A stretch of 64,000 bases of DNA from Semisulcospira habei. Its lineage: Eukaryota > Mollusca > Gastropoda > Semisulcospiridae. The notes under the pieces are model-generated. The model searched no databases, had not been told where the DNA came from, and was given only the letters and a program-made list of their open reading frames with translations. The position numbers and the translations under genes were made by a program. Positions 32,902 to 64,000 of the stretch are shown piece by piece. The DNA lies in contig BTPG01000003.1 in the NCBI GenBank assembly GCA_036245525.1, forward strand, positions 143,340,678 through 143,404,677, given 5' to 3'. Position 1 is the stretch's first letter. The number at the start of each line of letters is the position of its first letter.

Positions 32902-33132
32902 ATGAACGACTCAAAAAATTTAATGAACCTTGTGTATCACTCTGCCGTAATCAGCGGATTAGCAGTAGCTTATTCTATGCTGGGAAAAAGTCTACTCAAA
33001 ATGAAATCAGCAGACCTCAGTAGACTCGATTTCGAAGACAGCACTAAGCTAATTGTAGTTGTTACAGCGTCGATTGCGACAAAAGACTTTCTTGTCAAGC
33101 AGGGAATTATTCCTGAAAATGTTTCTATGTAA
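32902..33132 (+). CDS. 76-aa small hydrophobic protein
   Basis: MNDSKNLMNLVYHSAVISGLAV... has one hydrophobic segment (about 11-30, AVISGLAVAYSMLGKSLLKM) and a second weaker one (KLIVVVTASIATKDFLV). The homologue in copy 2 (51553-51783) is intact and nearly identical, which supports a real gene despite its size. I recall similar small proteins at this place in cnidarian Polinton-like elements. Function unknown. Confidence 0.72.
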   Translation: MNDSKNLMNLVYHSAVISGLAVAYSMLGKSLLKMKSADLSRLDFEDSTKLIVVVTASIATKDFLVKQGIIPENVSM

Positions 33133-33143
33133 ATAAAAATATT

Positions 33144-37926: not shown

Positions 37927-38018
37927 CTTTTTTATTTGTCCGACAAAAAAATAAATAGAAAATTATATAATGAAAATGGCACTTTATTGACTAAAATCTA
38001 TATAATAGACAAAATTAA

Positions 38019-38414: not shown

Positions 38415-38441
38415 TTTTTATAGACAAACCAAAAAGATAAA

Positions 38442-39047: not shown

Positions 39048-39549
39048 TTTAAAAACACAATATAATCTGTTTGTACAAAAACACTATGCTTGCCTTTCTG
39101 GTTATAAAAGGGGTTTCAAACTAACCACTCACACCGCAAGCCTTATAATAATGACTACGAAAAGCTTGTCTGGTTTTATTTTCTCCCTACTTGGACGTCA
39201 GTGACGGTGTGCGGTCTGTGATTTTAGACCTTACACCCAGAAGCTGCAAGGTCTAAAATCACAGATAGGTCCGCCATTATCATGTTGGTTGGGTAAACAG
39301 CACGCAACACAAATGTCCGTGATCTGGTTTCAATTTAAATGCATAACAGGACAAGGCAATGTCTGTGATCTGGTTCAAACTAACAACTCACTCCCCGATT
39401 TTCTCCTCGAGTGATCTAAAACACTTGTAAAACATGGTGGGGTGTATACTAAATTGAATAATTGAGGTCTCTCCCGGGATTAAAGTTGTGGGTTTCAATT
39501 TAAAGGCATCACGCGACAGGGTAATAAATAACTGTATGAAAGGCTGATT
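39048..39549. other. right spacer of Polinton with hairpin
   Basis: It carries a perfect 18-bp inverted repeat (39215-39232 and 39248-39265; arm TCTGTGATTTTAGACCTT) with a 15-nt loop, and the words TGTCCGTGATCTGGTT and TGTCTGTGATCTGGTT repeated about 50 bases apart (39313-39374). From 39397 it begins to match the left end in inverted form. No supported gene. Confidence 0.6.
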
Positions 39550-40012
39550 GTCACCCACTGGAGCGAAAACAGGAAACCGTTTCACAACCAATTTTCAAGC
39601 CCAACTTTCTGGTTGTGGAATAGATGCAATCTTGTAAACTCACACGACTACACAACAGCTGTCTCTACCTACAGGTTATGACGGCAATAACTGCACCCAA
39701 CAGGAATCCGGTTTCATCACGCGACAGTCTTGAGCACAAAGGCCGATTGTTCAACAGCGCAATGTCCGTGTGCGTAGCAGCAGTCACGATGTGTGAAGTG
39801 AAAACTTTTCACAGATAAATTTTCCTCCACACAATTTTTCACGTTGGACGTTTCATTTACGAACGACGTGGTGTTCCACATTTTGGAAATAACCTATATT
39901 AGAGATTTGTTCTATATTTTTGGTTTGCCCCAGAGTAAGAAAAATGACATAGTGGTTTAGTGACATACATTGAAGCGTTGACACAAAAAGGAATGCTAAT
40001 TTGTTTTGTGTG

Positions 40013-40069
<57 letters not shown>

Positions 40070-40387
40070 TATTTGGGCACAGAGGACTATTGTTTACTAT
40101 GGTGGTATGAACAGGAAGTAGACACTATTTCTCAGGAAGGCCAACTCTGACAGCATTGAGTGGTGGGGTGTGGGGGTGTGTGTGTGTGGGGGGGTGGGTG
40201 GGTGGTGTGTATTTCTCGGGAAGATATTTTAACTAGCCTTTTGTTTCCAAGGGGTTGGGGGACCTGACTGGGCAGATAAATCTGTTAAATGAATTTGGTC
40301 AAGTGCGTTTGTTTATTTACGGAAAGGATTAAATAAATCAATTGTTTCTGAAATGGGTGGGGTTGTATTCTCCTATATTGTATCTCT
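39550..40387. repeat. Polinton right terminal inverted repeat
   Basis: Inverted match of 24419-25258, including the GA microsatellite at 40016-40066. It ends CCTATATTGTATCTCT directly before the second TGCTAT. Confidence 0.92.
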
Positions 40388-40393
40388 TGCTAT
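40388..40393. repeat. Polinton target duplication TGCTAT, right
   Basis: Second copy of the 6-bp duplication; after it the Gypsy LTR resumes with GAGTGTATGAG as in the 3' LTR. Confidence 0.92.
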
Positions 40394-40611
40394 GAGTGTA
40401 TGAGAATAAGTTAAACAGAGGGCAAAGAGAGATAACCGTGTGGCCTTTGTCCTTGTTTGTAAGCGCGTGTGTGGTGGATGAAAGAGTCTAGTAAACAGAT
40501 AGAACACCCACCTTTATACAGATTGGCAGAAAGCCCATGCACACACTCATTCCATAAACGTTTATATGTAACAATTTAGTTCAGTAGTACACTAAAAACA
40601 CCGTCGTTACA
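40394..40611 (+). repeat. Gypsy 5' LTR, second part
   Basis: Continues the LTR after the Polinton and matches 45698-45824 plus 46217-46300 of the 3' LTR. It ends CCGTCGTTACA. Just downstream TTTGGTGACCC is the likely primer-binding site; I do not assign the tRNA. Confidence 0.88.
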
Positions 40612-44303: not shown

Positions 44304-46300
44304 TGTAACGAACGCCTTTAGTGCATGTTTCGGTCGGACGATGGTGTGACGTCATTAGCAGTTGGACCGAATGTACACATGCGAATAATGTAGAGATAAG
44401 CATTGTTCACGTGCGGTAATGTAGCTGTGAGCGATGTTCACGTGTGACAGTGTGGGTTCGGGAAAAATTGCTAGTTAGATGCTATACCAGTCGAGCCGAG
44501 CGGTCGTTTTCGCTAGGGCTCTGAGGAAGAATTCTGGCTAGAGAATTCGATAGCTGTATATTGAATACAGGTATTTATTCTTTTATTACCGGTATTTATA
44601 ATGACCTATTACGCTATTCAGATGAAAAAGGAAAGTATTTTATGAATTATTATTAAGAGTGCAGAAGAGCCATGTTTGAAGGAAATGCGATGGCTCGTGT
44701 CTATACTTGTTTAGTCATGTAATTATGTGATATAGTTTATAACTATGATGTCATGTTGTATTCATTCATATGTGAAGATGTGGGACTGAAATAGGAATAG
44801 AAATCAGTATATATTTAGGTATACTTAATGATGAAATGTGCAGTAATGTTACGAATTGGAGGTGAGCTGTGATTGTAATATTTGGCTCATAATCCATTGG
44901 GTGTAGGTACGTAAAATGTGTGTAAAGTGTTAAAGTGGCTATAGGAATTGTGTGCACTGTGTTAAAGTGGCTATAGGAATTGTGTGCACTGTGTTAAAGT
45001 GGCTATAGGAATTGTCATAAGAATTATGACAATAGTGACTGTAGTATGGTGACATAAAGAAGACATTTTTCAGAGGAAATGATCTAGATCACTCTGAAGA
45101 ATAGTAATGTGTCGAAGACACATTCAGACTTTTTGGGTATAAGAGCGAACATTTATGAGTGTATAAATGTTGTGTACAACGGGGCCGGTACGGAGCGGAC
45201 ACCCCTGGTGTAGGGCCGATGAAGCTGTCCTGAAGGCATCACGTACGTGACCAGGTGCGGACATCAAGCCTTCATCTCTCCTTCGTCCTACCATCACTGG
45301 TGCTACGAGCAGCAACGGTAGCGAAGTAAGCCACAGATTCGTGCTACAGGGCCACATGCAGTGTTCCGTCAGTGTAGCTATTGTCGCCTAGCGCCGTTAA
45401 TTTCACGCCTAGGAATGTTCTAAATCTGTGAGTAGTCATTGAATAATATTCAGTTCGGGAATCTTCGTCAAGTCGTCAATGTGATATTGACTGTGTCGAC
45501 ACTAGTATAAAGAGGAGTCGAGTGACGTCTCTCGAGAGACAACGACCTCTACGGTAGCGAGTGAATGTGTGAGCGCTGAAGTTGTGAATAACCTATATGC
45601 CACTTGTTAGTTATTTGTGCAGATTGGTTTATATGATGTGAATTGTTATTGGTGTAGATTGGTTTATATGATAATTGTGTGGTTTAATGTATGCTATGAG
45701 TGTATGAGAATAAGTTAAACAGAGGGCAAAGAGAGATAACCGTGTGGCCTTTGTCCTTGTTTGTAAGCGCGTGTGTGGTGGATGAAAGAGTCTAGTAAAC
45801 AGAACACCCACCTTTATACAGATTCCCCCACCCGGGTCTGCCCTGGGGGACTTGGGTGGGGTTAACTACTTTTTAGTTCCCAGGGTCACCCTGGTCAGCC
45901 CCACAGGGTGGGTTTTACCCTATATTCTGGGGCATGTGTTTCTGTCTACCCTTGGTCCATTCACCTGTATTTTCCTTTTTTAAACTCTCCCTACTGTCTG
46001 CGCTGCCTGTAGCTCTTGATATTGGATGTGTGTTGCTAAATGGTCTTAGCTTTATTTAGGCCCCATGTCGTAGGTTTATTTAACGACATACATTCAATAT
46101 TCTGTTTATTTTATTTTTTTTCACAAGCAGTGCGGGCACGTCCTGAGAAAGTCTTGTTGCTGTCGGGACGTTAAGCAATGTACAATCAATCAATGTACAA
46201 TCAATTTATACAGATTGGCAGAAAGCCCACGCACACACTCATTCCATAAACGTTTATATGTAACAATTTAGTTCAGTAGTACACTAAAAACACCGTTACA
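44304..46300 (+). repeat. Gypsy 3' LTR, with SINE insertion
   Basis: Starts TGTAACGAACGCC and ends CCGTTACA. Against the 5' LTR it has an extra ~32-bp tandem unit (three against two, 44932-45015), small indels and substitutions, and a SINE at 45825-46204. The TATA-like GTATAAAGAGG is at about 45504-45514. It contains the single TGCTAT (45692-45697) that marks the empty Polinton site. Confidence 0.9.
45825..46204 (+). mobile_element. SINE-like retroposon, copy 1
   Basis: ~380 bp, beginning CCCCACCCGGGTCTGCCC and ending GACGTTAAGCAATGTACAAT with a short AATC-repeat tail. Flanked by the exact duplication TTTATACAGATT (45813-45824 and 46205-46216), and absent from the 5' LTR at the same place. 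The same 5' end is seen in all three copies, so it is full-length rather than a 5'-truncated LINE. I see no A and B boxes; the head is GC-rich with CCCCACCC and GGGTGGGG able to pair. Confidence 0.85.
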
Positions 46301-48796: not shown

Positions 48797-48950
48797 TACC
48801 CCATTAAACCCGGACTCCCTGCAGCAGGAGATGGATTGACCATGATAATTCAAGGGTAGTGCCAGACTAGCTTGGCGCCCAAAGGCGCCAAGCTAGTCTG
48901 GCACTGCCCTTCAATTATCATGGTCGATCCATCTCCTGTATCTGGAGAGA
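48797..48950. mobile_element. palindromic MITE, family B (right end missing)
   Basis: Core AATTCAAGGGTAGTGCCAG with partner CTGGCACTGCCCTTCAATT, and a perfect GACTAGCTTGGCGCC inverted repeat. The left end keeps TTACCCCATTAAACCC. The right terminal repeat is not found. Confidence 0.6.
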
Positions 48951-49061
48951 TAATAAAGTGGACAGTTGATAGGCACCACTCCCCTAATCAATACATTTAT
49001 CAACTAGCCATTCAGACAAACGAACTCCAACACTTACCGCCAATGCCTCTATTACCTAGCC

Positions 49062-49446
49062 ACCCACACCCGGGTCTGCCCTGGGGGACTTGGGTGGGGT
49101 TAGGTATTTTTTAGTTCCCAGGGTCACCCTGGTCAGCCCCACAGGGTGGGTTTTTCTCTCTATTCTGGGGCATGTGTTTCTGTCTACCCTTTGTCCATTC
49201 ACCTGTATTTGCCTTTTTAAAACTCTCCCTACTGTCTGCACTGCCTGTAGCTCTTGATATTGGATGTGTGTTGCTAAATGGTCTTAGCTTTATTTAGGCC
49301 CCATGTTGTAGGTTTATTTAACGTATTTGACCGGCTGGCGACATACATTCAATTTTCTGTTTAGTTTTTTTTTTCACAAGCAGTGCAGGCACGTCCTGAG
49401 AAAGCCTTGTTGCTGTCGGGACGTTAAGCAATGTACAATCAATCAA
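49062..49446 (+). mobile_element. SINE-like retroposon, copy 2
   Basis: Begins CACACCCGGGTCTGCCC and ends GACGTTAAGCAATGTACAATC with an AATC tail. Flanked by a 14-base duplication, TCTATTACCTAGCC (49048-49061 and 49447-49460). It contains GTATTTGACCGGCTGGCGAC, which is missing from copy 1. Confidence 0.85.
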
Positions 49447-49601
49447 TCTATTACCTAGCCGTACTATTTCCACCTCAGAAATCATTCAAAGCAACGATTT
49501 TGGATCAGCTGCCAACCCGCGATTATTAAGGCAGATCCCCACCTAAATAATTAATGCTGTCATTGACTTCTTTAAACAAAATTATTATATTACATTATAA
49601 A

Positions 49602-50046
49602 ATGAATCGAGACGAATTGCTACTTTTAAACGATATCTGTGCTGTAGAGAACAAAGATTTAGACTCTAAAAAACAACGCCTTCTCTCTGTTGTTGTTTCT
49701 GGAAAATCAAAAGCTTATCTTGGTAAACAATACATGACAGAAGACATAGAATCTCTCACCGCTGACGAGCTAATCAAACTACATTCAAAAATGAAAATCA
49801 CATTAGTTCACTAATGACACGTGATTTGAGTCGATCTCTTGTCTGCCTATACACAAAAGCTGTGAGTCACTTCCTACCTGTTGATAGTGACAGCCTATCA
49901 CACGACCTTGAAAGCAACCCTATTGTTTCAAGTTCAATAGGCAAATTAGCATGCCTTATGTTTTACAAGTTTGGGAATTACCTTGCACCTGTGGTAACCT
50001 TGCTTGTAACTGGGAGTCATATTGATTTTTCTAAAATAAATTTTAA
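49602..50046 (+). pseudogene. 173-aa protein homologue, interrupted
   Basis: ATG at 49602 (MNRDELLLLNDI) preceded by CATTATAAAATG, as in copy 1. A one-base indel near 49790 shifts the frame after LTADELIKLHSK; the rest (MTRDLSRSLVCLYTKAV, DLESNPIVSSSIGKLAC) is in another frame. The last codons are cut by the TTAA-flanked element at 50047. Confidence 0.8.
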
Positions 50047-50473
50047 AGCTGAGGTGCAATGAGAAAAACCTGCCCAGCGCGTGTTTTAAAAAGACTACAG
50101 GACCCAGCTTGGGCCATGCCCCTAAGTGGGTCAAATCGGTTCGTAACTCAGTTGACGGAGTTGGCAACTGCGTATCCCGAGCTTGCAAAACTCTCGGAAA
50201 ACGACAGACCACTTCCTGTTGCACGGAAATCGTCGCGATTAGCAGATCGGACAACAGCAGACGATTCTGTGACACTTTGAAACTGACCGACAGCCACGGA
50301 TTTTACGCGCTGGGGACTATGATGGCAGAATGTACGGCTGTACATGCTGTAAGTATGACTCCTGACACTTTGTAGTTGTGAACAAATTTTTTTCAACACG
50401 TACCTCCAGTCCAATATAGGCTAATATAAATAAATAAAGAAGCATTGTGATGTACAACCAATACAGTAAATTG

Positions 50474-50505
<32 letters not shown>

Positions 50506-51056
50506 TCGACTGTTTACATAGATGCCAAAAGATACAAGGTCGCCATGGGTCAAGCTGATTTTTAGTAGCTGCCCTTCGTATGGAGAAAACAAATTGCTGT
50601 AGGCCACTCCAGATGAAAAGATATAACAACAAACACTAAACGACAAATAACCCCTCCTTCCTCACCCTTCCGATATCAAATAAGCTTCAGGCTGTACTGT
50701 GTAACTTACGGATAGCTCGGCCTGGTCCATATCCAGTGTGCGTCCAGGCAAGGCACAAATGGCCTGCTCTGTCCGTCGGGTGGTTGAGTGTCGTCTGCTA
50801 CTGTTGATATCAATAAAAAATATCGCTGGTTTAGATCAGTGATCGCTGTGCCCACTCGCAAACAGGAAGTGGCCTGTCTTTTTCACGGGAGTTTTGCCAG
50901 CACGACAAACGCAGTTGAAAACTCAGTCAACTGAGTCAGTTGCAAACCGGTTTGCCGAAGTTAGCCGAACGTTCACGAAGACAGGGCCCTCGCTGGGTCC
51001 CGCAAAGTTTTTTTAAAACACGTGCGGGGTGGAGTTTTTTTTACTGTTTCTCAGCT
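50047..51056. mobile_element. 1,010-bp TTAA-flanked foldback transposon
   Basis: Interrupts copy 2 between the 173-aa and 143-aa genes and has no counterpart in copy 1. TTAA is present at both edges (50043-50046 and 51057-51060), and the ends AGCTGAG and CTCAGCT are inverted. About 220 bases at each end are imperfect inverted repeats: for example CGTGTTTTAAAAAGACT, GGACCCAGC, CTCAGTTGACGGAGTT and ACCACTTCCTGTTG at the left recur inverted at the right. No transposase ORF, so non-autonomous; TTAA suggests a piggyBac-type target. A GA microsatellite lies at 50478-50504. Confidence 0.75.
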
Positions 51057-51071
51057 TTAAATTAGAAGAAA

Positions 51072-51516
51072 ATGGACGAGACCCAGACGACTCCACATCA
51101 GAGTCCTGTCTTGACACAAGTTCAAACGGTGACTAAGGTTAAAAGTCCAGGTCGAATAGAGGCTGGGAAAAGATTAGCTGAATATAACAAAAAAAAAAGT
51201 ACAGCTTCAAGCATTAACAGAAAAGACTCAAGTAACTGACACACCGTCAACAGCACCGGTGTCACTACCATCAGAACCAACACCCTCACACCCCCAACAA
51301 AGTGAGAGACAAACAACTGAGTCTAAACCAAAAATATCAAATTATATAGTTGCTGGATTTGTTCTTGGATTTGGTTACGTAGGTTACCAATTATACAACA
51401 AATACAAACCACAGACTCGAACAGTGTCCAAAAAATCAAGCACTCCAAAAATAAAAGAAGTAGTCGCCACATTACCAGCAACATCCAAAGCCGTGGACCC
51501 ATTTTACATGCAGTAA
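51072..51516 (+). pseudogene. 143-aa membrane protein homologue
   Basis: ATG at 51072 (MDETQTTPHQSPVLTQ). A longer A run near 51190 shifts the frame after RLAEYNKK. The membrane segment YIVAGFVLGFGYVGYQLY and the tail KYKPQTRTVSKK are kept. The single defect is in a homopolymer, so it may be a sequencing error. Confidence 0.75.
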
Positions 51517-51552
51517 ATAAATTTATTATTTAAATTTTTGTGGTATAAGAAA

Positions 51553-51783
51553 ATGAGCGACACAAAGAACATAATGAACCTTGTCTATCACTCTGCCGTA
51601 ATAAGCGGGCTAACAGTTGCTTATTCTATGCTGGGAAAAAGTCTTCTCAAAATGAAATCGGCAGACTTAAGTAGATTAGACTTCGAAGACAGTGCTAAGC
51701 TAGTTGCAGTTGTAACAGCGTCAATTGCTACAAAAGACTTTCTCGTCAAGCAAGGAATTATTCCAGAAAATGTTTCTAAGTAA
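51553..51783 (+). CDS. 76-aa small hydrophobic protein (copy 2)
   Basis: Intact, MSDTKNIMNLVYHSAVISGL, starting at 51553. It differs from copy 1 (32902-33132) at only a few residues. The retained frame in a decayed element supports it being a true gene of the family. Confidence 0.72.
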   Translation: MSDTKNIMNLVYHSAVISGLTVAYSMLGKSLLKMKSADLSRLDFEDSAKLVAVVTASIATKDFLVKQGIIPENVSK

Positions 51784-51792
51784 ATAAAAAAT

Positions 51793-52230
51793 ATGGCAAC
51801 AATAGCTATTATGATTGGTGGTGCAGTTGTTAATGCACTTGCATTTAGTGGATCAAACTATCTCTTTTCAAAAATGGGAAGAGAGGAATCAGCAGAAGAA
51901 ATGAAGCATCACAATGAGGCATCTGAAAAACTGGCACAAGTGCAACAAGATTATGAAAAGCAAAGAATAGAAAAACTTGATTTTATTAATGAAAAACTCA
52001 GACTTGAAGGTCACGCACAGCATACATTTTCAAATGATGATGATGCGATCAAAGAATATTTTCTTGTTACTGGTGAAGACATGACCATCCCACAACCAAA
52101 ACTTAGTGACTATTACCAACCAAGCCCAGAACAAAGAAATGGAGAAATAATATTTGTTCTAGTAGGAATGACATTTGTTTATTTTACAGGAATTTTTATT
52201 GCTAGAAAAAATGACCGACGTCGGAAATAA
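51793..52230 (+). CDS. 145-aa membrane/coiled-coil protein (copy 2)
   Basis: Intact homologue of 33144-33578: N-terminal hydrophobic segment, coiled coil, PKLSDYYQPSPEQRNGE and C-terminal helix. Preceded by TAAATAAAAAATATG. It overlaps the integrase start as in copy 1. Confidence 0.75.
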   Translation: MATIAIMIGGAVVNALAFSGSNYLFSKMGREESAEEMKHHNEASEKLAQVQQDYEKQRIEKLDFINEKLRLEGHAQHTFSNDDDAIKEYFLVTGEDMTIPQPKLSDYYQPSPEQRNGEIIFVLVGMTFVYFTGIFIARKNDRRRK

Positions 52231-53111
52231 ACTATCAAAAAATATATTACTCCCCTATTGGTTACTGGAAAGGAAAAACCGCAATAGAAAAACTACATGC
52301 CGCTGTGGGTGGAGATGTTACACTCGAACAAATAAAACTGGCTCAAAAGACAAGCAATTTGGCAAATATATTTACCTGCTCCAAGAAAAATAACAAGACC
52401 TCATTTTGTAAATACTATTCCTAATGACACCCATCAAATCTGTTCTTGCCACATGATACAATAAAAAAGAAACGATACAAGTATGCATTAACTGTTGTTG
52501 ACATAGCTTCAAGGTACAAGGATGCTGAACCCATAACTGACAAGAATGCTACCATGGTAGCCACTGCATTAACACAAATATATAGTCGAGGACCTTTAAA
52601 ATATCCTAGGCTTGTGCAAGTCGATGACAGATCTGAATTTAAAGGCGCTGTTAATCAGTTATTTGCAAAGCATGGAGTGCTAGTGCGGCGAGGCATACCG
52701 GGCGTGCATAGATCACAGGCTATTGTTGAGAACTTTAACAAACAATTATCAGAGAGACTTTTCAGCTATTAGTATTCTAAGGAACTCATGCATGATGCAC
52801 GTAACACTGAGTGGGTTAAGAGATTACTGTCTGTGATAAAAGCAATAAATAATGAAGGTCACCCTAAACCCGTTGATGCTATTAAATTGAAAACAATACC
52901 GTCAGGGTCAGAAATAAAAACAAAAGCGCCAGACACTAGCTTGTTTACAAAACAGGTAAGATATTTGTATCAACCCGGTGAGGCTGAGAATGACGTCAGA
53001 CGTAGGGCAACTGATCCAATTTGGTCTACATCTGTCCACAATATAAAAAAAATAGTCCCTGGCGCTAAAGCATCGATTTATTATCTATATGAGCCTGCCC
53101 CACAGCGTTAG
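52211..53111 (+). pseudogene. INT: integrase homologue, catalytic Asp lost
   Basis: Starts MTDVGNKLS at 52211. Frameshifts occur in the N-terminal part. Where copy 1 has HQMDLLF, a 7-base deletion (near 52440) removes the first catalytic Asp codon and shifts the frame. The downstream sequence is readable (YALTVVDIASRYKDAEP, LVQVDDRSEFKGAV with Gly changed to Arg, QAIVENFNKQLSERLF) up to a TAG after LFSY near 52770. The C-terminal part then reads to a TAG at 53109-53111. Clearly inactive. Confidence 0.88.
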
Positions 53112-53143
53112 AGAAGAATTACAGATTATTTCCCCAGACACTG

Positions 53144-56100
53144 TTAGGCATTTTTAACCATTTCATCAACTAATTCATCAATTAGTTCATCAACCAGTTC
53201 ATCAGCTATTTCTTCAGATAACTTAAGCACATAATGCCCAGGTGCATAAGCCTTTTCCTTAGTGTGAAACACTCATTTTGTGTCTCCAACTGCAAGTGAC
53301 TTTTTATGTGTTTGGATCATTTCAATATTGTGTCTATTTGACCTCAGTGTTTTGTTTGGATAATCAGGCATTAGTTCTCCATCTAATACTTGCTTGTAAT
53401 GTTCATGTCGAATGTCTTTATTTTGTATCGCTGTTTTTTTTTTATTCCTTTAGCTTTGGACTGACTGCCTTTTTGGTGAAGTATAGAATACATTTTTGAC
53501 CTCAGTCCAACGTACTCAACAATAGGCACTCCATTGAGTTCATCTTTAAATTTCCCAGGCACTTTCTTATTTTGTGTGCTAAACAGCGGGTGATCCTTAG
53601 GGTAGTCAGACGTGTCATACATATGCAACTCTGTTTTCATGTCTTCATAAAAGTCTTCAGTAGGCACATCAATGATCATAGAGTCAGTGTCAGTGTATAA
53701 GAGACGGCACTCAGGATACTTCGGTTTGAAGTAATCATACTAAAATTCAAGCATCAATAATTTTGACAACTCAAGTATTGCCATACCAATAAATACTGGC
53801 TTGTCTAGTTTAACAATCTTTTTTTTTTTTTTTTTTGAGTGTCACTGCATACAATGATGGATGAAACTCTTTGTACCCTGTGTATTGTGGCTTGCCTGTA
53901 AGTTTAATTGCACCTGATTCAGTTGTAACCAGTCTCACATCTTTGGGGTGATGAGGATTTTCCATAGTCTTACCAAAACGGGCATTGTTCATAAGCTTAA
54001 AGAAGTCTTTGTCAAATGCAGTGTTGCCATCTCTCGCACGAAGAGCTGTGTTCTTCATTATGTAATCTTTCATGAAAGCACTTTGATCAAATTTAATACA
54101 TCTGTGTACTTTTTTTAGTATTAACCCATGCCTGATGTAAAACTGCAGCAATCGATAGTGACAAACGTAGTTGAATTTGTCATTCAAATTTGGTACAAGT
54201 TTAGTGTCTTCTTTTTTCCCTGTTAAAGACATTTTCTCAACAGCTAATGGATAATCATTGTGGTAATCATGTAGGTGGTGCGGGTACTCTAGGTCAACTT
54301 CAAAGATCCAACCCTTTTTGTGATTCCGATCATAATTCATAATTTTGTTTGTTAATTTTTTTATATCACACTCTGACAAATCATGTAGACGAAAGTTTTT
54401 CAATGGCAATAACTCACACATTGCAAATCCATAAAGGTTATTAGTGTCCAAGTATGTAATGAATGACCTTGACCTGGAGGGGTCAAAGTCGTCAAGATAT
54501 TTGTTGTTGGCTCTGGCATAATTGTTCGCAGCAATACTAATGCCTCCCCTCAATCCACGTTCCACCATTTCACCCATCGTACGATCAGAGAACAGGTCTA
54601 TAGATATCTTACTGGATTTTAAAAATGCATCCCATGTCATGCCAGGACTAGTTATGTAGCAAGCAGGGTCAAGTCTGTAGTGTAACAAACCCTTTTCACG
54701 GTAACTTTCAAATACGTCTGCTAGCAAACAAACATCAGCTTTCAAGTACTGGTCATGGTAGTCACCAATCGTTTCACACCCTAGTTTACCCCATGCTTCA
54801 AGTGCGTGCTTGTAATCCGAGTCAGAAATACCTTTGCCATTTAGTGTAGAATAAAATGCCTCTTTTGGAGGTAGTCTCCTTTCCTCAATCACAACCCAGT
54901 GATCAATGTACTCATATGGATAGACACCTTTCTTAATTAACTCTGGCTCAACATATTTGCTTGTTATTGGATATTCAATCAGTCCTTCTGCCAGACTAGC
55001 AAGCCCTAAAGACAAATGTTGCATAGAGTCATAAAATGCTAATTTATCCAACCTAAAAGTCAAATATTTTTCAGTTGTCTGGGCAATACAACTAATTTTT
55101 TTTGTAAGACTCGTCCACAGCCTGCATGATAATATGTGAATCATACCCCTTGAGATTGTGGAAACAGATAGGCAGTTTGTATGCCTTGGGATCTATTTTT
55201 AGTTTTAAGTTGCAATCACCATGTGCAGCACCTCTGTAACGTCCAGTTATGTGGTCATGGTCATGAACTTTATCACCCTTCAGAAGTTGTTCACAACTTC
55301 CCAGAGGTTGTTTACAAATCCAACAAATCTCCGCCGTATCAAAATTTAGTTTATCTTCTTCTGTCATCATCAAAGGCATCTGACAGTTTTCCAAATGCTG
55401 TACTACCTGACTATACAGTTGTCTCATTTCTGTTAAAAACTCAGCTGCTGCATTTTCACCCTTGTAGATAACAGGTTCTGAATGCTGCCCATCTGACCTA
55501 ACAAGAATGTATCCAAAAGAACACACCACTTGGTCACTCAATTTTACAGTCTTTGGTAATGATTCTGGAACAGGACCATCATATGGAACAACCAGTGATT
55601 CAAAATCAGCATACACTACAAACGGCAGCTTTTGCTGATTTCCATAGTTCTTAAAATATACCTTGCTACCAGGATCTGGATACCTCAGTATTGTTTGAAT
55701 GTCATCAGGTGACCTACAGTGCTGGACATGTTTGTGTGCTACTTTAATAGAGGAAAACCTCTGTAAACATTTTTTACAAAATTCCTGTTTACCATCATGT
55801 TTTGTTGTATGATGAATTAGTCTTGACATGCTTCTGATAATTGTGTAGTGAAAGTTATCACCGGAGCCAGAACTTATTAGTAACATGTCAACATGCTTAT
55901 CTTCTGACTGTCCGTAGGTTGGGGCAATTGGTGATACTCTAATTGGTTGTAACTTGTTCTCAGACTCATTATCCCATACATACACATTTACAGATATACC
56001 AGGATTTAGTTTTTCAAACAAATCTATGTCCTCCACCTTAACAGGGAAATCTATTCCACTGAAGTTGAGTTCATTTTTAAATTTGATGTAGTTAGATACG

Positions 56101-56624
56101 CGATCAGCATCAGGTCTTGTTTTTACAAAGTGTAGTTTGGCAAGCACACATCACATAAAACAGAAATTATCCTTGTTCTGAATATTGACTACAGCCTTTT
56201 TGTTTGCAACCTCAGTTGGTAGTGGCAGCCATGGTTTACCCAATATAGGATGATATCTTGATTGCTTCAGTTGCAGTTCATGTACACGCCCTTTATGCCA
56301 ACCAGACCCCTGCATTTTTGCTCTATCAATTGCTTCAAGGAAGTCAGGCAACAGTCTTTCTCTAAACACGTTTTCCAGTTCTCTTCTAGAATTAATTGTG
56401 TGTTGTCTTGTCGAGATATATGATACAATCACTTCACCATCTACCCTGGTAAATTCTATTTTAGCAACAATCTGAATCTTTACACTACCTGACAGAAGAT
56501 TATTTTGTATGACAGAAAAAGACCTTTCTATTGATTCATAGACACTGTAAGTGTTGGATATAGGCAAGTCTGTTGTGTGAAACACGTTTCTTAAGCCTGA
56601 CATGCTTTGGTCATTGTCCGTCAT
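53144..56624 (-). pseudogene. POLB: family B DNA polymerase homologue, several breaks
   Basis: Starts MTDNDQSMSGLRNVFHTTD at 56624. Breaks seen: Trp to TGA after NFCFM (56148-56150); a frameshift in a T/A run near 55100; a frameshift in an 18-base T run (53820-53837); a TAG in place of Tyr just before motif C (near 53741); and another T-run shift near 53438. Between them the motifs match copy 1: YADFESL, CWICKQPLG, HNLKGYDSH (readable here), YLKADVCLLADVF, LDTNNLYG (copy 1 has VDANNLYG), KLMNNARFGKTMEN and YTDTDS. It ends in the same DELVDE-type repeats. Confidence 0.9.
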
Positions 56625-56736
56625 TTTTATTTGTCCGACAAAATAATAAATAGAAAAAAAATTACTGCTGGCTCTGTATGTTTAATACAATTTTATTAAC
56701 TGTAACACATTCAATATGAACATTTAGTTTACATAG

Positions 56737-57018
56737 CTATTGAAATATGTTATAACCCAGAGTATCAATCCAGCTGCAGCTTGCATCATTAACTTTAAAG
56801 GTATTTGTTCTTTTATCAACAGTCATACACTCCATGACTGAATGTTCATCAACATAATCCAAAGTCACATTATATGACAAATATATCACCGCTGGTACTG
56901 AGAGTCTTATGTCAGGCTGTTTGGGAGATGTTATTAAGTCAGTAAAGTGTAGAACATCTCTGAAGCAGTCAGTGACATCAATAGCTTGCTCTGTTTGCAT
57001 GGTTTGTCCGTCTGCCAT
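56737..57018 (-). CDS. 93-aa variable Polinton protein (copy 2)
   Basis: Starts MADGQTMQTEQAIDVTDCF, between POLB and the ATPase as in copy 1 but shorter and only weakly similar to the 131-aa protein. The open frame inside a decayed element suggests either recent constraint or chance. Confidence 0.55.
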   Translation of the reverse strand: MADGQTMQTEQAIDVTDCFRDVLHFTDLITSPKQPDIRLSVPAVIYLSYNVTLDYVDEHSVMECMTVDKRTNTFKVNDASCSWIDTLGYNIFQ

Positions 57019-57044
57019 TTTTATGGACAAAACAAAAGGCTAAA

Positions 57045-57651
57045 TTAATTCACTGATCCATACCCTGTGGGCTGATCTGTCTTTAAAATAAGCTTTAGAT
57101 GCTTAGTCGATTTTAGTTTGTTTTTTTACATCATCTCGTTCATGCTTATTTGGGATGACATTGTTCTCTCTGAGACAGTCTTTAAAGCTGTCATGATCCT
57201 TACAGTAAAACAAACAGATAAACTTTAGTTGTTCACGAAAATCTTTCAGTACAGCATTATATTTTTTAGTGAGAATCCATACACTGATGTTTGCATGTCT
57301 GCCACTGAAGGCAAGTTCTGCCAGTGTGTTTCTCTTCTTAACAATATCTTTTTCTGCAAAGCAATCATCAACAATAAACAAAGTTGTCTGCCCTTCAAAT
57401 TGTTTGTAAAAATACAGCAGGTAGTCGTTCAGTTTTTTCTCAGGGTCAACTAAATAAATGTTGTGATCAGACCAAATGAATAAACAGTTGTGATAAGCTT
57501 TGTTGTGTTTGATCGTAGGACAAAATATCACAATGTTTTCAAAATGACAGATGTATATTGTTTGTAATAGGTCAAGAACAAATTCAGTTTTTCCACAGCC
57601 TGTGGCGCCACAAAATAAGCCGCAGTGTGGGTCGAGTGTCATCAAGTTCAT
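57045..57651 (-). pseudogene. ATP: packaging ATPase homologue, one frameshift
   Basis: ATG at 57651 (MNLMTLDPHCGLFCG). Walker A GATGCGKT and Walker B LFIVDDC are intact. The frame shifts in a T run (57121-57127) near the C-terminus, after which the last ~25 residues (TDQPTGYG) are in another frame. The next gene on its 5' side is the MCP, whose stop lies 19 bases away. Confidence 0.85.
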
Positions 57652-57670
57652 TTTAAAACACAATATTATT

Positions 57671-59346
57671 TTAATACAAATGTCCACTTAGTCTGCTTTC
57701 TGCAATATTGAGTTGTGCATCATAAATCAGATACAAATATATATTTATTGCTCCTGTGGTTTCAGCCTTTTTTTGTATTTGGATTGTGATCCCGTCACTA
57801 CCGTTTTCAACAGTACGACCTGACCCATGTAGGTAGTCGTCATCTGTACTACGCAGGTCTAGCCAAAATGCATACTTGTCTGTCAGGTATTGAGCTATTC
57901 TTACATCGTACAGATGTAGATCTTTGCTTGCTATGTTTGCTGGTTTTTCTCTAAGTCTTCCACCTGCAAAATACTTTGTGATCTCGTCATAGTGCTGGTA
58001 AGGTAACATGCCTGAAGCAAAGACTTGATTAGGGCGCCCTTCAATAGTACAATACAAATGAGTAATCTTTGGATTATAGAATTTTTCTGAATCCCGTCCG
58101 TATGGACTCGCCAGTTTAACAAACAACATAAGAATGCCTTTCAGTGACCTAGCAGGTGTGTTCAAGCTGATGTTCCACATTGGATCACTTTTGTCTTTAT
58201 GCATTAAACTGTGCCTCATCACACGGTCATAATAAATAGGCAGTTTTGTTTGGTACTGATTTTGAATGAGAGTAGCTAGATGAATATGTGTGACAATTTC
58301 ATATTCCAAGGAAATGTTAGAGATCTTGTATGATGCATTGAGATCCGTTGATTTAATAACTTTGGAGTAGTCATTAAAGATTAGTTCAAAACTCAGATGG
58401 TCATTCAGTGCTCCTTGATAATAAGGCAAATGTGATGTTAGGATTTCAAATTCAAGTGGAATGCAAAATCTATTTCCATATGTTTCTGCCACAATAACGT
58501 CCTTTGCTTCTGTTGTTGATTAATTTATCTGTTGCATTGATTCTGAGTTTGGCAACATTATCAGACTATATACCTTGATAAATACGGTCTTCTCGTTCTT
58601 CACTTGTGAGCCACAGATCTTTGTAACAGTAGACCCCACCCGGGTCTGCCCTGGGGGACTTGGGTGGGGTTAGGTATTTTTTAGTTCCCAGGGTCACCCT
58701 GTTCAGCCCCACAGGGTGGGTTTTTCTCTCTATTCTGGGGCATGTGTTTCTGTTTACCCGAGGTCCATTCACCTGTATTTGCCTTTTTAAAACTCTCCCT
58801 ACTGTCTGCACTGCCTGTAGCTCTTGATATTGGATGTGTGTTGCTAAATGGTCTTAGCTTTATTTAGCCCCATGTGTTAGGTTTATTTAACGTATTTGAC
58901 CGGCTGGCGACATACATTCAATGTTCTGTTTATTTATTTTTTTTCACAAGCAGTGCAGGCACGTCCTGAGAAAGCCTTGTTGCTGTCGGGACGTTAAGCA
59001 ATGTACAATTGTAACAGTAGAATACATCAGCATCATCAAGACTAAACACTTCCTGGCCTTCAAGTTTAACTTTAATAGTCTTAATAATTGCTCTGCCAAG
59101 GTTGCCAACTAGTGTTCTTTCGTCATCTGTGTCTGATGAAAGTTCAATATTAAAAGCAAGGCGAGCAGTACCAGGAACAATAACATCACTGGGACCTAGG
59201 TTAGGAAACTTGACAGTAAGGGTTTGGTTTTGATCTATGGTGGTAGGATTGTTTGTGACAACAATTGATTGTCTAATGCCCTTAACACCAAGAGGCTCAC
59301 GTAGTTTTCTGTATGGGTCTAACTTTGATCCATAGGACGATGTCAT
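57671..59346 (-). pseudogene. major capsid protein homologue, split by a SINE
   Basis: Starts MTSSYGSKLDPYRKLREP at 59346. It reads to DDADVFYCYN, then is interrupted by the SINE at 58634-59008 (duplication TTGTAACAGTAGA), and resumes with KDLWLTSEEREDRIYQGI. A second frameshift with a stop lies near 58515. The C-terminal 273 residues (MAETYGNRFCIPLEF onwards) are open and very similar to copy 1. Confidence 0.8.
58634..59008 (+). mobile_element. SINE-like retroposon, copy 3, inside the capsid gene
   Basis: Begins CCCCACCCGGGTCTGCCC and ends GACGTTAAGCAATGTACAA. The flanking duplication is TTGTAACAGTAGA (58621-58633 and 59009-59021). It lies on the plus strand, antisense to the capsid gene it breaks. 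Similar to copy 2 over its whole length. Confidence 0.87.
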
Positions 59347-59387
59347 TTTATTATGCAAAAATCAAAAAAATTAAATTAATAAAAACA

Positions 59388-60618
59388 ATGGCAGCGGGAG
59401 GATTTGGTCATGAAGATTTTGAAATGGATGACATGAATGACTATGATACTGGTGCAACAGATATGACTGGAATGGTAAATACTTCTAGTATGTATCACGA
59501 ACTGTTAAAAGACAAAGTAAACTCATTTTATGATAGTGTTGGTGACCGCCCAGAAGTTTTGGATCCTAATCAGTTTGAACTTGATAACAAGGGCCATTTA
59601 TATTTAAATACAGACAGAGGAAAAGTACAATTGACTTATATAAAAAAAAATCCCACTAAGTTTAAAGCTTTAAGTTCAATTAAAACTAGTGTTGGTGGTG
59701 AGGCAGCACTGCAGCGTTACCTTGGTGTTGGTAGTAAAAAGTTGCCACCTAGACTTGCTAGTACCCTTCATGACGTACAAACAAGATTGCCAACTGGTCA
59801 AGAAATTGAAATGACTGAAGTAAAAAGGCTTCCAGAAATAGCAGACAAGGTAATACACGAAACTTCATTTGCAGAAGGGCAAATAAATGAGGTTATGAAA
59901 ACAATAGAAGACTCTCCTTTGACAATGCGGGAGTTAGTGGGCTTGGATAAAACACTGCAGTCAATAAGAGGTGAGCTTGTGAATAATGTATCCAAACTAG
60001 GTGAGCTTGATAATCACATAGAAAGAGAAAAAGAAAAACTAGCTAAAGCTGATGATGAGAATTATGACACAGAAATGAAAGAAAGAATACAACACAGATT
60101 AAATGATTTGCAGATAGAAAGGTCAGCGCGACTAGAAGTGATTGAAATAGGAAAAGAAAAACTGAAAACACAGGTCAACAGGGTTAGAGAAACTATTTAG
60201 AAAATACTTTACAAAGACACAACTTTGGCTGAGAGATTGAAAACACTTTTCAGAGAGCAGGGTATCACTATTGCAAGTTTAATTACTGCTCTTGGATTTA
60301 TTATTAGTACTGTAGTGTTAGCTGTAACAGGTGGTGGTAGCAGTCCAGCTCCACCTGCCCCTCCAGCTCCTCCAGTTCCATCAGACCCAAAAGATTTACA
60401 GGCATGGGTAAAAAAAACCAGTTGTCTCATATATCAGACTTGCTTCAAAAATTGGCAGTAAAAGCAATGGATGCTTTGCCTGGCATAATAGGGAGTATTG
60501 TCAGTTGGCTGATCAGTACAGCAGCAAAGGTAGTAGGGTTTATGGCGGATCATGTGTGGTTTTTTTTGGTGACAGTAGGAGAACAGTGGGTTATTTAATG
60601 AAACAGGTAAAGAAGTAA
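59388..60618 (+). pseudogene. coiled-coil membrane protein homologue
   Basis: ATG at 59388 (MAAGGFGHEDFEMDD). Open to a TAG replacing Gln at 60198-60200 (after NRVRETI); it then reads LAERLKTLFREQGITIASLI with a longer Pro hinge (SSPAPPAPPAPPVPSD), shifts in an A run near 60415, and shifts again near the C-terminus. Divergent from the capsid gene across 41 bases, as in copy 1. Confidence 0.8.
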
Positions 60619-61891
60619 TATCCCTAATCCAGTAAGGCCTATTACCAATGCAGTTCTCTCTGACTCATGTGTGTTTACTGGGGTTACTGGCTGTACTGGT
60701 GTTGGTACCGGTGCAGGTGTCGGTGCCGATGCTGGGGCTGTTACTGACATTACTGGCGTTACTGTCTGTACAGGTGATGATGATGTTACTGGCGTTACTG
60801 GCGTTATTAATGGTTTTAATGGTTGTAGGTGAGTGGTTGTTGGGCTCAAGTTTACAGATTGATTGAGGCCTAATTTCTGATCACTCCCTGCAACAATTAT
60901 TTCGTTATTATAATTTGTTATTGTACCCATTTGGAGTTGAAGGTCAGATGGTAACATGTATAGGCCGATGCCAACTACAAAGTCAACTTTCGATCTGGCA
61001 TATCTGAGAACGTCTTGGTAGTGTTGTATGCTTGAAGGAAGATCAACAACTGAGTTAATTGAATCTTCCAGGTTTGCCAGAAATTGTTTTTGTGCTTCAA
61101 ATTTCCCACTCCCATTTAAAATAGTTGACTTTGTTTGAGCTTGTGCTCCTAGTATACACCACACAAACGGAGACTCATTAATGCATTCGACTCCTGCTTG
61201 AGTAAACCCCTCACTCTTATCTAAGACAAATGTGGTCCAGGCATTAGACTGTTTCTGTTCAATCGAGCCTAACCACACTTCAGATTTTGATGAGAATGAA
61301 GAGTAGGGAGGCCAGTAATCTTGAGGGTATTGTCTGTGACTCATAGCATAATACAATGTACCCATGCCCTTGTGATCATCAAGTTTTTGTGTAAAGTCAT
61401 ACTTTGTACTAATGTTAAATTCATTACAGATGCGTTCAAATGCTTTCAAATCTATGGGATTGTTAAACTGATTAAAACTGGATTCAGTGGGCAGTGGGGT
61501 ATGGAGTTCTGACAGTATTCTTCTAAGCTGGTAATATGTGTGGAAATGATAGACAGACTTTATCAGTTTGTTTGGATGATTCAGATGGTCTGTAAAAGAA
61601 ACACCACAGCCTGTAGTAGAACACAGTATGGCAAGTTAAGTTGGCTTGAAACATCTGTAGTGGGCTTGAAGACCACTTTCTTGCAGTTGCATCATCTGTT
61701 ATTGGAGGGTTTAGGTAATGATCATACGGATTTGGCACTTTCACTTTAAATAAATCTCCTTCAGACAAAGCTATATCGAGCTGATTTAGCTGAATTATTT
61801 TCTGATCATAAGTTGGTGCGACATTGTACTTGGCATCCATGTTAAATTGAAATGCATTTACAGTGGTAATTGTTGGTGATTTAAATTCCAT
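60595..61891 (-). pseudogene. 408-aa structural protein homologue with expanded stalk
   Basis: Starts MEFKSPTITTVNAFQFNMD at 61891. A one-base deletion near 61636 breaks the frame; the rest to 60595 is open. The stalk before the tail anchor is enlarged by PVTPV, SAPTPAPVPTP-type repeats that are absent from copy 1. The tail anchor HESERTALVIGLTGLGILLLYLF is kept. Confidence 0.78.
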
Positions 61892-61917
61892 TATGCTTTT
61901 TTATGTGATAATAAAAA

Positions 61918-62664
61918 ATGTTTATTACCTTATCAAATATTGACACAAGCAAACCAGTGTGGTTAACTAATGGAATTGATAATCGAGATGGTAGCAAGGC
62001 TGTAACTATCCATGAAATGTTCTACACTGTAAAGTGGTTTAATGTAACAGATGATACAAGTTTTCATATAAGTTATAGCACCCCCGGTAATAGTGGCTTG
62101 GGCACTAAAACCCACTTTATACCATCTGGGTATTATGACTTTTGTACTTTAGCTGAATGGTTTCAAAGTAAATTAAAAATTAAAGCAACTTTAAATCCGG
62201 CTAACTTACGTGTTACTTTAGAATTTCCTGTAGGTAGTCAGCCTATAATTTCAAGTGAACTTGCATATTTACTCGGTTTAATAGGCAGACATATAACTTC
62301 TAAGGATGAGAATTGGGCATTGGGTTTTGGAACTGCTAATATTGAGGGTTGGTTACCTACGACAGTTGGAGATAAAATAACTGGAAGATACCCTGTTCAT
62401 TTGTCAGTACACACATTGCTAAATGTTTATTTAAAAGAACTGAACACGGCTGAAAATGTTCACAATGGAAAGCCTTCAACTTTGTTAAGATGCTTGCTGA
62501 CTGGAACTGCCCCATATTGTGAAAGTGTGGTTGCTAGATTTCCTAATTTGCAGTTTAAAAAATTAGGTTCCAGTTTCTTTGAATCACTGTGTTTATCTGT
62601 AACTAATCAGGATGGTAAACCAGTTCAGATGCATGATTTTACTGTTGTGTTGGAAGTGAAATAA
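61918..62664 (+). CDS. putative minor capsid protein (copy 2)
   Basis: Intact, 248 aa, MFITLSNIDTSKPVWLTNG. The same start box (TGATAATAAAAAATG) and the same conserved ends as copy 1, with two internal segments replaced: HISYSTPGNSGLGTKTHFIP, and SELAYLLGLIGRHITSKDENW with an added GFGTANIEGWLPTT. Either copy could be the derived one. Confidence 0.52.
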   Translation: MFITLSNIDTSKPVWLTNGIDNRDGSKAVTIHEMFYTVKWFNVTDDTSFHISYSTPGNSGLGTKTHFIPSGYYDFCTLAEWFQSKLKIKATLNPANLRVTLEFPVGSQPIISSELAYLLGLIGRHITSKDENWALGFGTANIEGWLPTTVGDKITGRYPVHLSVHTLLNVYLKELNTAENVHNGKPSTLLRCLLTGTAPYCESVVARFPNLQFKKLGSSFFESLCLSVTNQDGKPVQMHDFTVVLEVK

Positions 62665-62686
62665 ATTTTATTTTTGTTTTATAAAA

Positions 62687-63574
62687 ATGAGCGGTCTTGG
62701 TCCAAAGCTGAGAATTATTCCAGTTGCATGTCCGTCAATAGAGTTAAAAGATTTGGCTGACGTGCAAGATTTTGATAAAGAAGGTGAGATAGGAGAGGTG
62801 TATGGCCTTGAACTTGTTTCCGTTGGATTGTACAAACGAAAGGCAATTGAAGATGTAAAAGATGGTGCTGAGAGACAGTTTCCTAAACTTGGCCAACTTC
62901 ATGATGTTACTGTACCTACGCCTGTAAATAATGTGCTATACAGCTTAAAACATGTGGGTAATAAGTGGGTAATTGTTCCTACCCCTGTTCCGCTTGCACC
63001 TATCCCCATTGTATGGGACATAAAGTTTGTATTTATCAGTCCTTATGTTTATTTTACTGATGAAGGAGCCCTAGTATTAGAAAAGTTGTTAACTCTGAGC
63101 CAATGCTTGTAAGTCTTGTGCCAAGCTATTTTGCAGAAACCAATAGCAGAGAAAAACTAAAATTGCAAGAGTATGGAAAAACGAAGATATCTTCTTACAA
63201 ATAGAAAGGGTAGGACAGATACTACTATTGTGTTTGTACCATCAAACTTTACCATAGATAGAGAAGCGACAATAGTTTTTGAAATTATCATGAGGTCTGT
63301 AGATACTGCGAAAGAAGCAGATATCGCACAGGGAATCAAACTTACATGATATAGCTTAGTAGCAGAATCAACAAAGGTTGTTATTGCTATTAGAAAAAAA
63401 AAAAACACAGATTTTGACGTTTCGAGTAGTGTCCCTGCTGTTAAGGTAGTAATCGATAAAACAATTTTTGTTCTTCTAAGTTTCATAAACCTAGAACACA
63501 TAGATCTTGTTTCGTTTTATTACGCTAGCAAATTGTATACCTTTGAAGAGTTGCAAAATAAATTAGAAGATTAA
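62687..63574 (+). pseudogene. 292-aa protein homologue, broken
   Basis: ATG at 62687 (MSGLGPKLRIIPVACP) after TTTATAAAAATG. The frame is open to about 63100, shifts near ALVLEKLL, and has a TGA after GIKLT (near 63348) and an A run at 63392-63404. The end reads LQNKLED as in copy 1. Confidence 0.75.
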
Positions 63575-63600
63575 ATTTAAAAAATATTTGCCACAAAAAA

Positions 63601-64000
63601 ATGCCACCACTGTATCCGCAAATACAACCTGATCCGCCTGAACCTATTGTTCCAGATAAAACATTACAGGCAGACTCATTCTTTTTAATGAATATTACAG
63701 AAGCGTTGAAGTATTTGGAAGGAGAACAAGCAAAATACTTCCGGTGCAAAAGACGATATAAAACGGTTTTCAATTCTGTACACAACACATCAATGGCCGT
63801 TGGTGTGGTTTCAGCTGGATTATCTGTCACTGGTTTAGCTCTGTTTGCTACGGGAGTGGGGAGTGTCATAGGAATTGCTATTGAAGGAGTTGGCACTGTC
63901 ACAGGTCTGGCATGCTTTGGTATGGAGGCCCTTAACAAAAGATTTCATACGAAGTTACAGAAGCATGAAGCATTGAGTACGCTCACTGGGGCTAAGCTGA
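63601..64000 (+). CDS. 208-aa hydrophobic-hairpin protein homologue (cut by window end)
   Basis: ATG at 63601 (MPPLYPQIQPDPPEP), open to the end of the window. The hydrophobic hairpin VGVVSAGLSVTGLALFATG...VEGVGTVTGLACF-like region and KLQKHEALSTLTGAKL match copy 1. The rest of the gene and the right end of the element lie outside the window. Confidence 0.75.
   Translation, partial: MPPLYPQIQPDPPEPIVPDKTLQADSFFLMNITEALKYLEGEQAKYFRCKRRYKTVFNSVHNTSMAVGVVSAGLSVTGLALFATGVGSVIGIAIEGVGTVTGLACFGMEALNKRFHTKLQKHEALSTLTGAKL

Follow-up and report, generated by a model that had tools for sequence, protein, structure and literature searches.

Two Polinton families of Semisulcospira habei carry one gene ring with ends at different positions

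The stretch of Semisulcospira habei DNA analysed here (64,000 nucleotides, hereafter the window) contains two Polintons of different families, whose common gene ring is opened at different points. Copy 1 (24419-40387), representing family B, is opened between the genes of the packaging ATPase and the major capsid protein (MCP), and copy 2, which represents family A and runs from its left end at 48946 beyond 64000, is opened between the genes encoding proteins of 208 aa and 173 aa. Both families are multi-copy in the host genome of 1.98 Gb, which argues against both an assembly error and a one-off integration as the source of the copy 2 arrangement. We consider it probable that family A is ancestral, and that family B arose from it when the ends were joined and the ring was reopened between ATPase and MCP, with new terminal inverted repeats (TIRs) as ends.

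Results

The self-BLAST of the window recovered a permuted map of the two copies, bearing out the gene orders given in the original prediction. Positions 49582-50045 of copy 2 corresponded to 31946-32410 of copy 1, 51101-56657 to 32446-37962, 57004-57669 to 38400-39066 (88%), 57669-58633 to 25611-26571 (82%), 59010-60700 to 26560-28236 and 60848-64000 to 28312-31411. The sequence had been expected to pass directly from the ATPase side, at about 39066 of copy 1, into the MCP side, and positions 39066 and 25611 of copy 1 indeed adjoin each other in copy 2, the joint at 57669 being precise to within roughly one base. About 20 bases separate the coding ends there (19 bases had been predicted), and no copy-1 TIR sequence was detected either at this joint or at the ends of copy 2 within the window. 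Third codon positions were the most divergent in 12 of the 13 ORFs for which over 300 bases were aligned between the two copies, indicating selection in both lineages.

Copy 1 is bounded by a left TIR (24419-25440, plus strand), which begins with AGAGATACAATATAGG and is called shell 1 below, and a right TIR (39394-40387, minus strand). Together they give a 1027-nt inverted match of 93% over a length-variable stretch, with four arms of 69-444 nt showing 97-100% identity. The target-site duplication TGCTAT is located at 24413-24418 on the left and 40388-40393 on the right, and the second LTR-like repeat has a single, unduplicated counterpart of this site at 45692-45697. The spacer between the left TIR and the MCP gene (25441-25610) has no match in copy 2 and is, from about 25458-25460 onward, common to copies with either of the two TIR sets described below. 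The MCP gene (432 aa; 25613-26911, minus strand) opens the gene array. The 208-aa gene (31021-31647, plus strand) and the 173-aa gene (31966-32487, plus strand), which are the right-end and left-end genes of copy-2-type elements, lie on the two sides of what we read as the closed joint of the old ends (31930-31946). An RVE-type integrase of 355 aa (33526-34593, plus strand), the polymerase (34503-37926, minus strand), an ATPase of 201 aa (38442-39047, minus strand) and the spacer between the ATPase and the right TIR (39067-39393) complete the element.

Copy 1 thus resembles animal Polintons/Mavericks in its family B polymerase, RVE integrase, A32-like ATPase, MCP, long TIRs with 5'-AG ends and short target-site duplication. 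The integrase, of retroviral type, matched PF00665 (1.8e-10), and the A32-like packaging ATPase matched PF04665 (1.3e-13). The polymerase is distributed over two ORFs (34503-36473 and 36523-37926), and in each of the 12 closest relatives it is a single protein, 1106-1141 aa long. The two ORFs themselves gave no match to PF03175 in the Pfam scan; several relatives are listed with this domain, which was found in one of the five relatives scanned (P0277, 3e-16), and by way of these relatives the polymerase is probably a family B enzyme of the protein-primed type. Likewise, the MCP query had no match to Capsid_N, the domain being present in 22 of the 31 members aligned (7.5e-05 at best), and the protein may be assigned to the Capsid_N type through its relatives only, of which there were 3416 (the best 120 being listed). 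Polintons/Mavericks also encode a maturation protease and a minor capsid protein; none of the remaining ORFs scanned exceeded the Pfam cut-off. In the PDB sequence search one polymerase ORF had no match and the MCP alignment had one weak match (E 0.055), and a PHROGs search with two ORFs returned nothing useful.

The left end of copy 2 lies at 48946 and not at 49602, where the element was formerly thought to start. Its left TIR (48946-49580, plus strand) is split by an inserted short repeat of 0.39 kb (49063-49450, plus strand) into parts at 48946-49062 and 49435-49580, and was therefore overlooked in the first reading. The left part of the element (49582-57669), with the 173-aa, integrase, polymerase and ATPase genes, contains a 1.06-kb insertion (50046-51100) with inverted arms at 50042-50220 and 50861-51061. 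It is followed by the ATPase-MCP joint (57660-57690), which we read as the ancestral junction, by the MCP gene (57671-59361, minus strand), broken by a repeat at 58634-59009, and by the right part (59362-64000) with the genes of 418, 408, 239 and 296 aa and the start of the 208-aa gene. In 13 of 14 ORFs, copy 2 and copy 1 differ in length at least once by a number of bases not divisible by three, some of these differences being at ORF edges. Copy 2 is decayed or diverged.

Beyond 64000, copy 2 matched copy 1 up to the window-equivalent position 64424 (31823 of copy 1) and another copy up to about 64500. From there to 72000 nothing matched a second 173-to-ATPase gene set, and a right TIR of copy 2 was not found up to 72000. 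A tandem of partial elements with lost TIRs had been named as the main alternative for copy 2, and a look for a second gene set or a terminal repeat to the right of 64000 had been advised. The tandem reading is not supported, because no second gene set matched within 8 kb past 64000 and because the ATPase-MCP joint is family-wide.

The search of the genome for this joint, recommended in the original prediction, revealed that it is spanned in all 40 scored matches, one of which is the window; as the scoring covered 40 out of 7339 first-look candidates, the count is a lower bound. The 39 other places are located on eight chromosome-size contigs and show 90-93% identity, a recurrence that makes an assembly error at 57669 hardly conceivable. 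The TIR-173 joint was also found in all 40 scored matches (94-96% identity, excluding the window itself). The TIRs of copy-2-type elements are about 247 bp long and are located exactly where copy 1 is closed. When the ends of 21 copies were surveyed (that of the window plus the 20 next-best), the start of the 173-aa gene was within the fetched piece in 9 of the 21, and TIR sequence adjoined it in each of these nine; a right-side TIR was present in 11 of the 21 copies and TIRs on both sides in four. Among the three copies in which both TIRs are complete, c0 and c7 have TIRs of 246-247 bp with 5-bp duplications, and d6 lacks a duplication. The order of copy 2, taken at first for that of an odd copy, is that of a multi-copy family that has TIRs of its own, and occurs also in the relatives that were judged. 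That copy 2 goes back to one aberrant integration event of a circle opened at another point would agree with the absence of copy-1 TIR sequence from its joint and ends within the window, but the recurrence of the joint in every scored match and the family's own TIRs at the 208/173 boundary make this very improbable.

The copy-1 type is equally well represented: both the TIR-MCP joint and the closed 208-173 joint were present in at least 40 matches, all 40 of those scored in each case (99-100% identity), and in the 15 copies found by both queries the TIR-MCP joint and the ATPase-side spacer were 13.3-14.2 kb apart. Exact duplications of 5-6 bp flank the TIRs in nine of ten family B copies, the right piece of the tenth (B2) stopping before the end; they measure 5 bp in seven copies and 6 bp in two, copy 1 having 6 bp. 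All ten copies carry an identical shell at both ends, which is that of copy 1 in six and a different one, shell 2, in four. Family B thus bears two unrelated TIR sets. The spacer corresponding to 39067-39393 was found in six of six shell-1 copies and in none of the four shell-2 copies tested.

In the stretch 29900-33800, B2 and copy 1 differ at 13 of 3690 sites, compared with 104 of 3662 between B2 and the shell-2 copy B6; at the MCP end of B2, by contrast, about 530 sites include 0-3 differences from shell-2 copies and 19-24 from shell-1 copies. B2 is therefore a recombinant, showing that lineages with different shells have exchanged body sequence and that elements recombine in this genome. 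Such recombination is in line with an exchange of blocks, in which the MCP-to-208 block would have switched sides between co-replicating linear elements and no ring would have formed, and module layout also varies among vertebrate Mavericks (PMC8097293). However, several precise joins would be required, whereas the observed pattern amounts to one closure and one opening with the genes retained, and we regard a block exchange as improbable.

In a third family, C, the MCP gene adjoins the ATPase gene in all four places read; the single far piece fetched for this family (L102) had no match to any tested sequence, the ends of family C lying outside the data. Among database relatives the one readable contig, L001, has MCP running into ATPase, and for the others the adjacency is deduced from coinciding contig sizes. 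Twenty-five sizes coincide between the relatives of MCP (best 120 of 3416) and those of the ATPase (119 of 120 listed), 11 of them below 4.5 kb, against 1.24 on average and at most 6 in the control, and a size of 7467 bases recurs among the listed relatives of MCP, ATPase and polymerase. In the order of copy 1, the distance from MCP to polymerase is 12.3 kb. Since family C, L001 and the contigs of the relatives all put MCP beside ATPase, these data give good support to the reading that the copy 2 order is ancestral and that the family of copy 1 is a lineage with moved ends. One sequence only represented family B in the tree. Two candidates were dropped: L002, a weak match within a long bacterial ORF, and P0026, which looked like an MCP-ATPase fusion and merely repeats a piece of MCP. 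Scans of viral_contigs with MCP and ATPase, single and aligned, gave nothing useful.

At the closed joint of copy 1, a short filler (31930-31946) separates the old right spacer from the former end of the old left TIR, and the old ends meet there without the old TIRs. A hairpin centred at 31851 was considered as a fossil TIR-TIR palindrome and rejected because the same stretch is found to the right of the 208-aa gene in the family A copies c5, c6 and c8. The TIR-less scar at the 208-173 joint could also be accounted for by a chromosomal route, in which the inner TIR pair of a head-to-tail tandem of A-like elements was deleted and a unit shifted by part of a turn was mobilised by new TIRs, and related copies are common in this genome. 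This route is nevertheless unlikely: in copy 2 the bases at the two new breakpoints (39066 and 25611) lie side by side, and with a tandem one would have to assume that two units were each hit by an independent event at an identical base.

Discussion

According to the history that we favour, in which family A is ancestral and family B re-ended, the starting layout would have been TIR-173-integrase-polymerase-ATPase-MCP-...-208-spacer-TIR. In the founder of family B the two ends of an A-like genome would have been joined, both TIRs and a portion of the right spacer being lost, after which the ring would have been reopened at a single point between ATPase and MCP, all genes being kept. New TIR-bearing ends would have been attached at this point, and the re-ended family would then have been amplified, being found now with two unrelated shells. 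The intermediate may have been a free circle, or else a ring-closed or head-to-tail concatemeric form that was subsequently re-ended. The proposal that a circular or concatemeric genome opened at another point lies behind the permutation holds to this extent: the permutation is circular and such a form is still the simplest route, but copy 2 is not the odd one-off that it was taken for. Neither a circular molecule nor an intermediate copy turned up among the sequences examined here.

The new ends were presumably derived from another Polinton. Their donor was not found: shell 2 adjoined a family B ATPase in all 10 places read of 40 matches (one of the 10 rests on 83 bases only), and the shell-1 spacer as a query gave at least 40 matches that are full-length and 100% identical, with no donor among them. 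It is possible, though somewhat doubtful, that Polinton ends are exchangeable modules more generally, a TIR-less ring being re-ended elsewhere with the TIRs of another element so that repeats and bodies evolve separately.

To our knowledge, the replication of animal Polintons and the existence of a circular or virion form are open questions. The moved ends of family B, together with its readable scar and its two TIR sets, form a natural record pointing to a ring-closed stage and make such a stage testable in one genome. This family also means that end position and gene order can mislead as classification characters for Polintons.

Vertebrate Mavericks are described as 12.7-24.6 kb long, with TIRs measuring 46-1447 bp and end motifs of the (AG)3 or (AGT)2 type (PMC8097293). 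Compared with the usual layout, those of Rhinella marina and Xenopus tropicalis have modules pointing apart or on one strand, so that large-scale changes of layout are likewise known, but the section consulted describes no rotation in which the TIRs have moved and a scar has been traced (PMC8097293). Virophage genomes are circular or linear and their gene order is poorly conserved between types; the Mavirus-like virophages (EMALEs) are likewise integrated with TIRs, but their hosts are protists, and the portions seen do not describe rotation (PMC8547959). In the open-access literature searched, as far as its texts were seen, no rotated Polinton whose TIRs had changed position was described (including PMC11071308, PMC8547959, PMC9683012, PMC8097293, PMC4642659 and PMC12220804). 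Unlike in the known Polintons/Mavericks, two families here share one gene ring with different end positions, the bodies of one family carry two unrelated TIR sets, and most of the target-site duplications are 5 bp and not 6 bp long.

Copy 2 carries the genes of copy 1 in a rotated order

The original prediction that the gene order of copy 2 is rotated relative to that of copy 1 was borne out: the two Polintons share the same gene set, with 81-88% identity. Copy 2 starts at 48946 with a left terminal inverted repeat (TIR) that contains an inserted short repeat. When the contig was followed beyond 64000, as had been proposed, copy 2 was found to continue to about 64424-64500, with no right TIR found as far as 72000. 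Frame-shifting length differences relative to copy 1 were present in 13 of the 14 copy 2 ORFs, some of them at ORF edges. In addition, its major capsid protein (MCP) gene is interrupted by a repeat, and the element carries a 1.06-kb insertion. The short repeat of about 0.38 kb occurs three times (45825-46204, 49063-49450 and 58634-59009), twice inside copy 2, with insertion duplications of about 12-14 bp; a ATCAATCAAT-type tail was directly read in two of the three. The stretch of copy 1 that holds its 131-aa ORF (37962-38400) had no nucleotide match in the corresponding copy 2 region (56657-57004), though the flanks match on both sides.

Copy 1 (24419-40387) has TIRs of about 1 kb, the four longest arms being 97-100% identical, and a 6-bp target-site duplication, TGCTAT. 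It is inserted within one of two repeats (23047-24418 plus 40388-40604, and 44304-46296) that are 96-99% identical and, with gag- and pol-like ORFs between them, look like retrotransposon LTRs. The second repeat retains a single, unoccupied target site at 45692-45697. The copy 1 polymerase (34503-37926) is represented by two ORFs, while each of the 12 closest relatives is a single protein of 1106-1141 aa; an endonuclease VII-like stretch was seen in all five polymerase relatives scanned, in some under Pfam's cut-off.

Both layouts are multi-copy families

We searched the species' own assembly (1.98 Gb, 507 contigs; window at C3:143340678-143404677). Each search scored 40 matches out of a first-look list of several hundred to several thousand, and the family counts are therefore lower bounds. 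The ATPase-MCP joint, central to the original prediction, recurs in the genome: all 40 scored matches, the window included, spanned it (at least 40 loci), with 90-93% identity outside the window itself. The copy 2 joint between the TIR and the 173-aa gene was likewise present in 40/40 (at least 40; 94-96%, window excepted). Elements of this type, with TIRs at the boundary of the 208- and 173-aa genes, are termed family A. The ends were read in the window and the 20 copies ranking next in the ATPase-MCP search. The start of the 173-aa gene lay within the fetched piece in 9 of these 21, and TIR sequence adjoined it in all nine; TIR sequence was found in 11/21 right pieces and at both sides in 4/21, partly incomplete. 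In two copies (c0 and c7), each end carried a TIR of 246-247 bp and the duplications were 5 bp long; a third (d6) had both TIRs without a duplication.

In family B, the copy 1 type with TIRs between ATPase and MCP, the closed 208-173 joint and the TIR-MCP joint were each present in 40/40 scored matches (at least 40) at 99-100%, and the ATPase-side spacer of copy 1 had at least 40 full-length genome matches at 100%. Among the matches listed, both ends lay 13.3-14.2 kb apart in at least 15 copies and all three landmarks occurred together in at least six. Exact 5- or 6-bp duplications flanked 9 of 10 copies; the right piece of the tenth ends before the element does.

Family B is read as the rotated lineage

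In a third related family (C), MCP runs directly into ATPase at all four places read, one of which belongs to a slightly different member whose frame has 201 aa; the ends of family C were not seen, and the single far piece obtained from a copy had no match to any sequence tested. Family C (G000, e.g., C4:104747009-104747605) has an ATPase frame of 215 aa that is open in most of its 150 listed matches, and none of these 150, not all of which necessarily belong to family C, had an internal stop.

In a 4.6-kb database contig (JAADDH010000017.1), the MCP match ends within an ATPase-like ORF on the same strand. Although deposited as part of the MAG of a Diapherotrites archaeon, this contig encodes a Polinton-like MCP, an ATPase and, by eye, a polymerase, and is probably misbinned eukaryotic DNA.

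We also compared contig sizes between the best 120 of 3416 MCP relatives and the 119 sized among the best 120 of 925 ATPase relatives. Among those listed 25 sizes coincided, 11 of them below 4.5 kb; in that range, 2000 jittered control sets gave 1.24 coincidences on average and never more than 6. A size of 2163 bases was common to one MCP (431 aa) and one ATPase (213 aa), which together would fill all but about 230 of these bases. Another, 7467 bases, was common to MCP, ATPase and 1122-aa polymerase relatives; in the order of copy 1, MCP to polymerase takes 12.3 kb. From these coincidences we infer that MCP adjoins ATPase in the database relatives.

A tree built with FastTree from a segment of 202 MCP residues joined families A and C (local support 0.946); copy 1 branched outside this pair, and the database relatives lay farther out. 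Given this tree, the coincident sizes and the adjacency in family C and the archaeon-filed contig, we read family B as the rotated lineage.

Anatomy and probable route of the rotation

Where the old ends met, copy 1 retains family A's right-hand spacer (to about 31930) followed by a short filler to 31946, which ends within about 2 bases of the end of A's left TIR. Both old TIRs are absent from this closed joint, as is the remainder of the right spacer, whose length in family A is about 0.5, 1.0 and 2.0 kb in copies c6, c0 and c8, respectively. Positions 39066 and 25611 of copy 1 are adjacent in copy 2, indicating a single opening of the ring that cost no coding sequence. Each new end brings a TIR of about 1.0 kb, together with 170 bp next to MCP or 327 bp next to ATPase. 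Over its outer 65-80 bp this TIR is 70-77% identical to A's TIR, and thus old and new ends are broadly alike in kind; neither a donor nor the ring form itself was seen among the genome matches examined.

Probably the two ends of an A-like linear genome were joined, in a circle or a head-to-tail form, and its TIRs were lost; a new opening between ATPase and MCP then placed it within a new TIR pair; the integrase and polymerase of the re-ended element could then have spread it. A chromosomal tandem or a stepwise exchange of blocks could yield the same product, but each would require more coincidences than closure and reopening. Thirteen ORFs had over 300 aligned bases between copies 1 and 2, and in 12 of these (the exception being the 239-aa gene) differences were highest at the third codon position, which shows that the lineages diverged under selection.

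Two TIR sets and recombination in family B

Six of the ten family B copies carried the TIR set of copy 1 (shell 1) and four an unrelated set (shell 2). The set matched at both ends in all ten, and no mixed pairs occurred among the family B matches in the coordinate lists. Where compared, the shells join the body at 39066 (ATPase side) and near 25458-25460 (MCP side). The MCP end of one shell-2 copy, B2, differed at 0-3 of about 530 sites from other shell-2 copies and at 19-24 from shell-1 copies, yet across 29900-33800 B2 differed from copy 1 at 13/3690 sites and from the shell-2 copy B6 at 104/3662. B2 is therefore a recombinant of the shell-1 and shell-2 lineages. At the ATPase end, family B copies differ at 0-5 sites, too few to tell the lineages apart.

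An overlapping frame at the 208-aa gene

An open stretch in a different frame overlaps the last part of the 208-aa gene and extends past the gene's stop, at 31560-31748 in copy 1 and at window-equivalent 64149-64346 in the continuation of copy 2 (L011). The frame is open in both copies and ends in ...PSAPPPDYY and ...PSAPPPEYY, respectively. PSAP and PPxY are late-domain motifs, and the stretch could be joined to the 208-aa protein via frameshifting or splicing.
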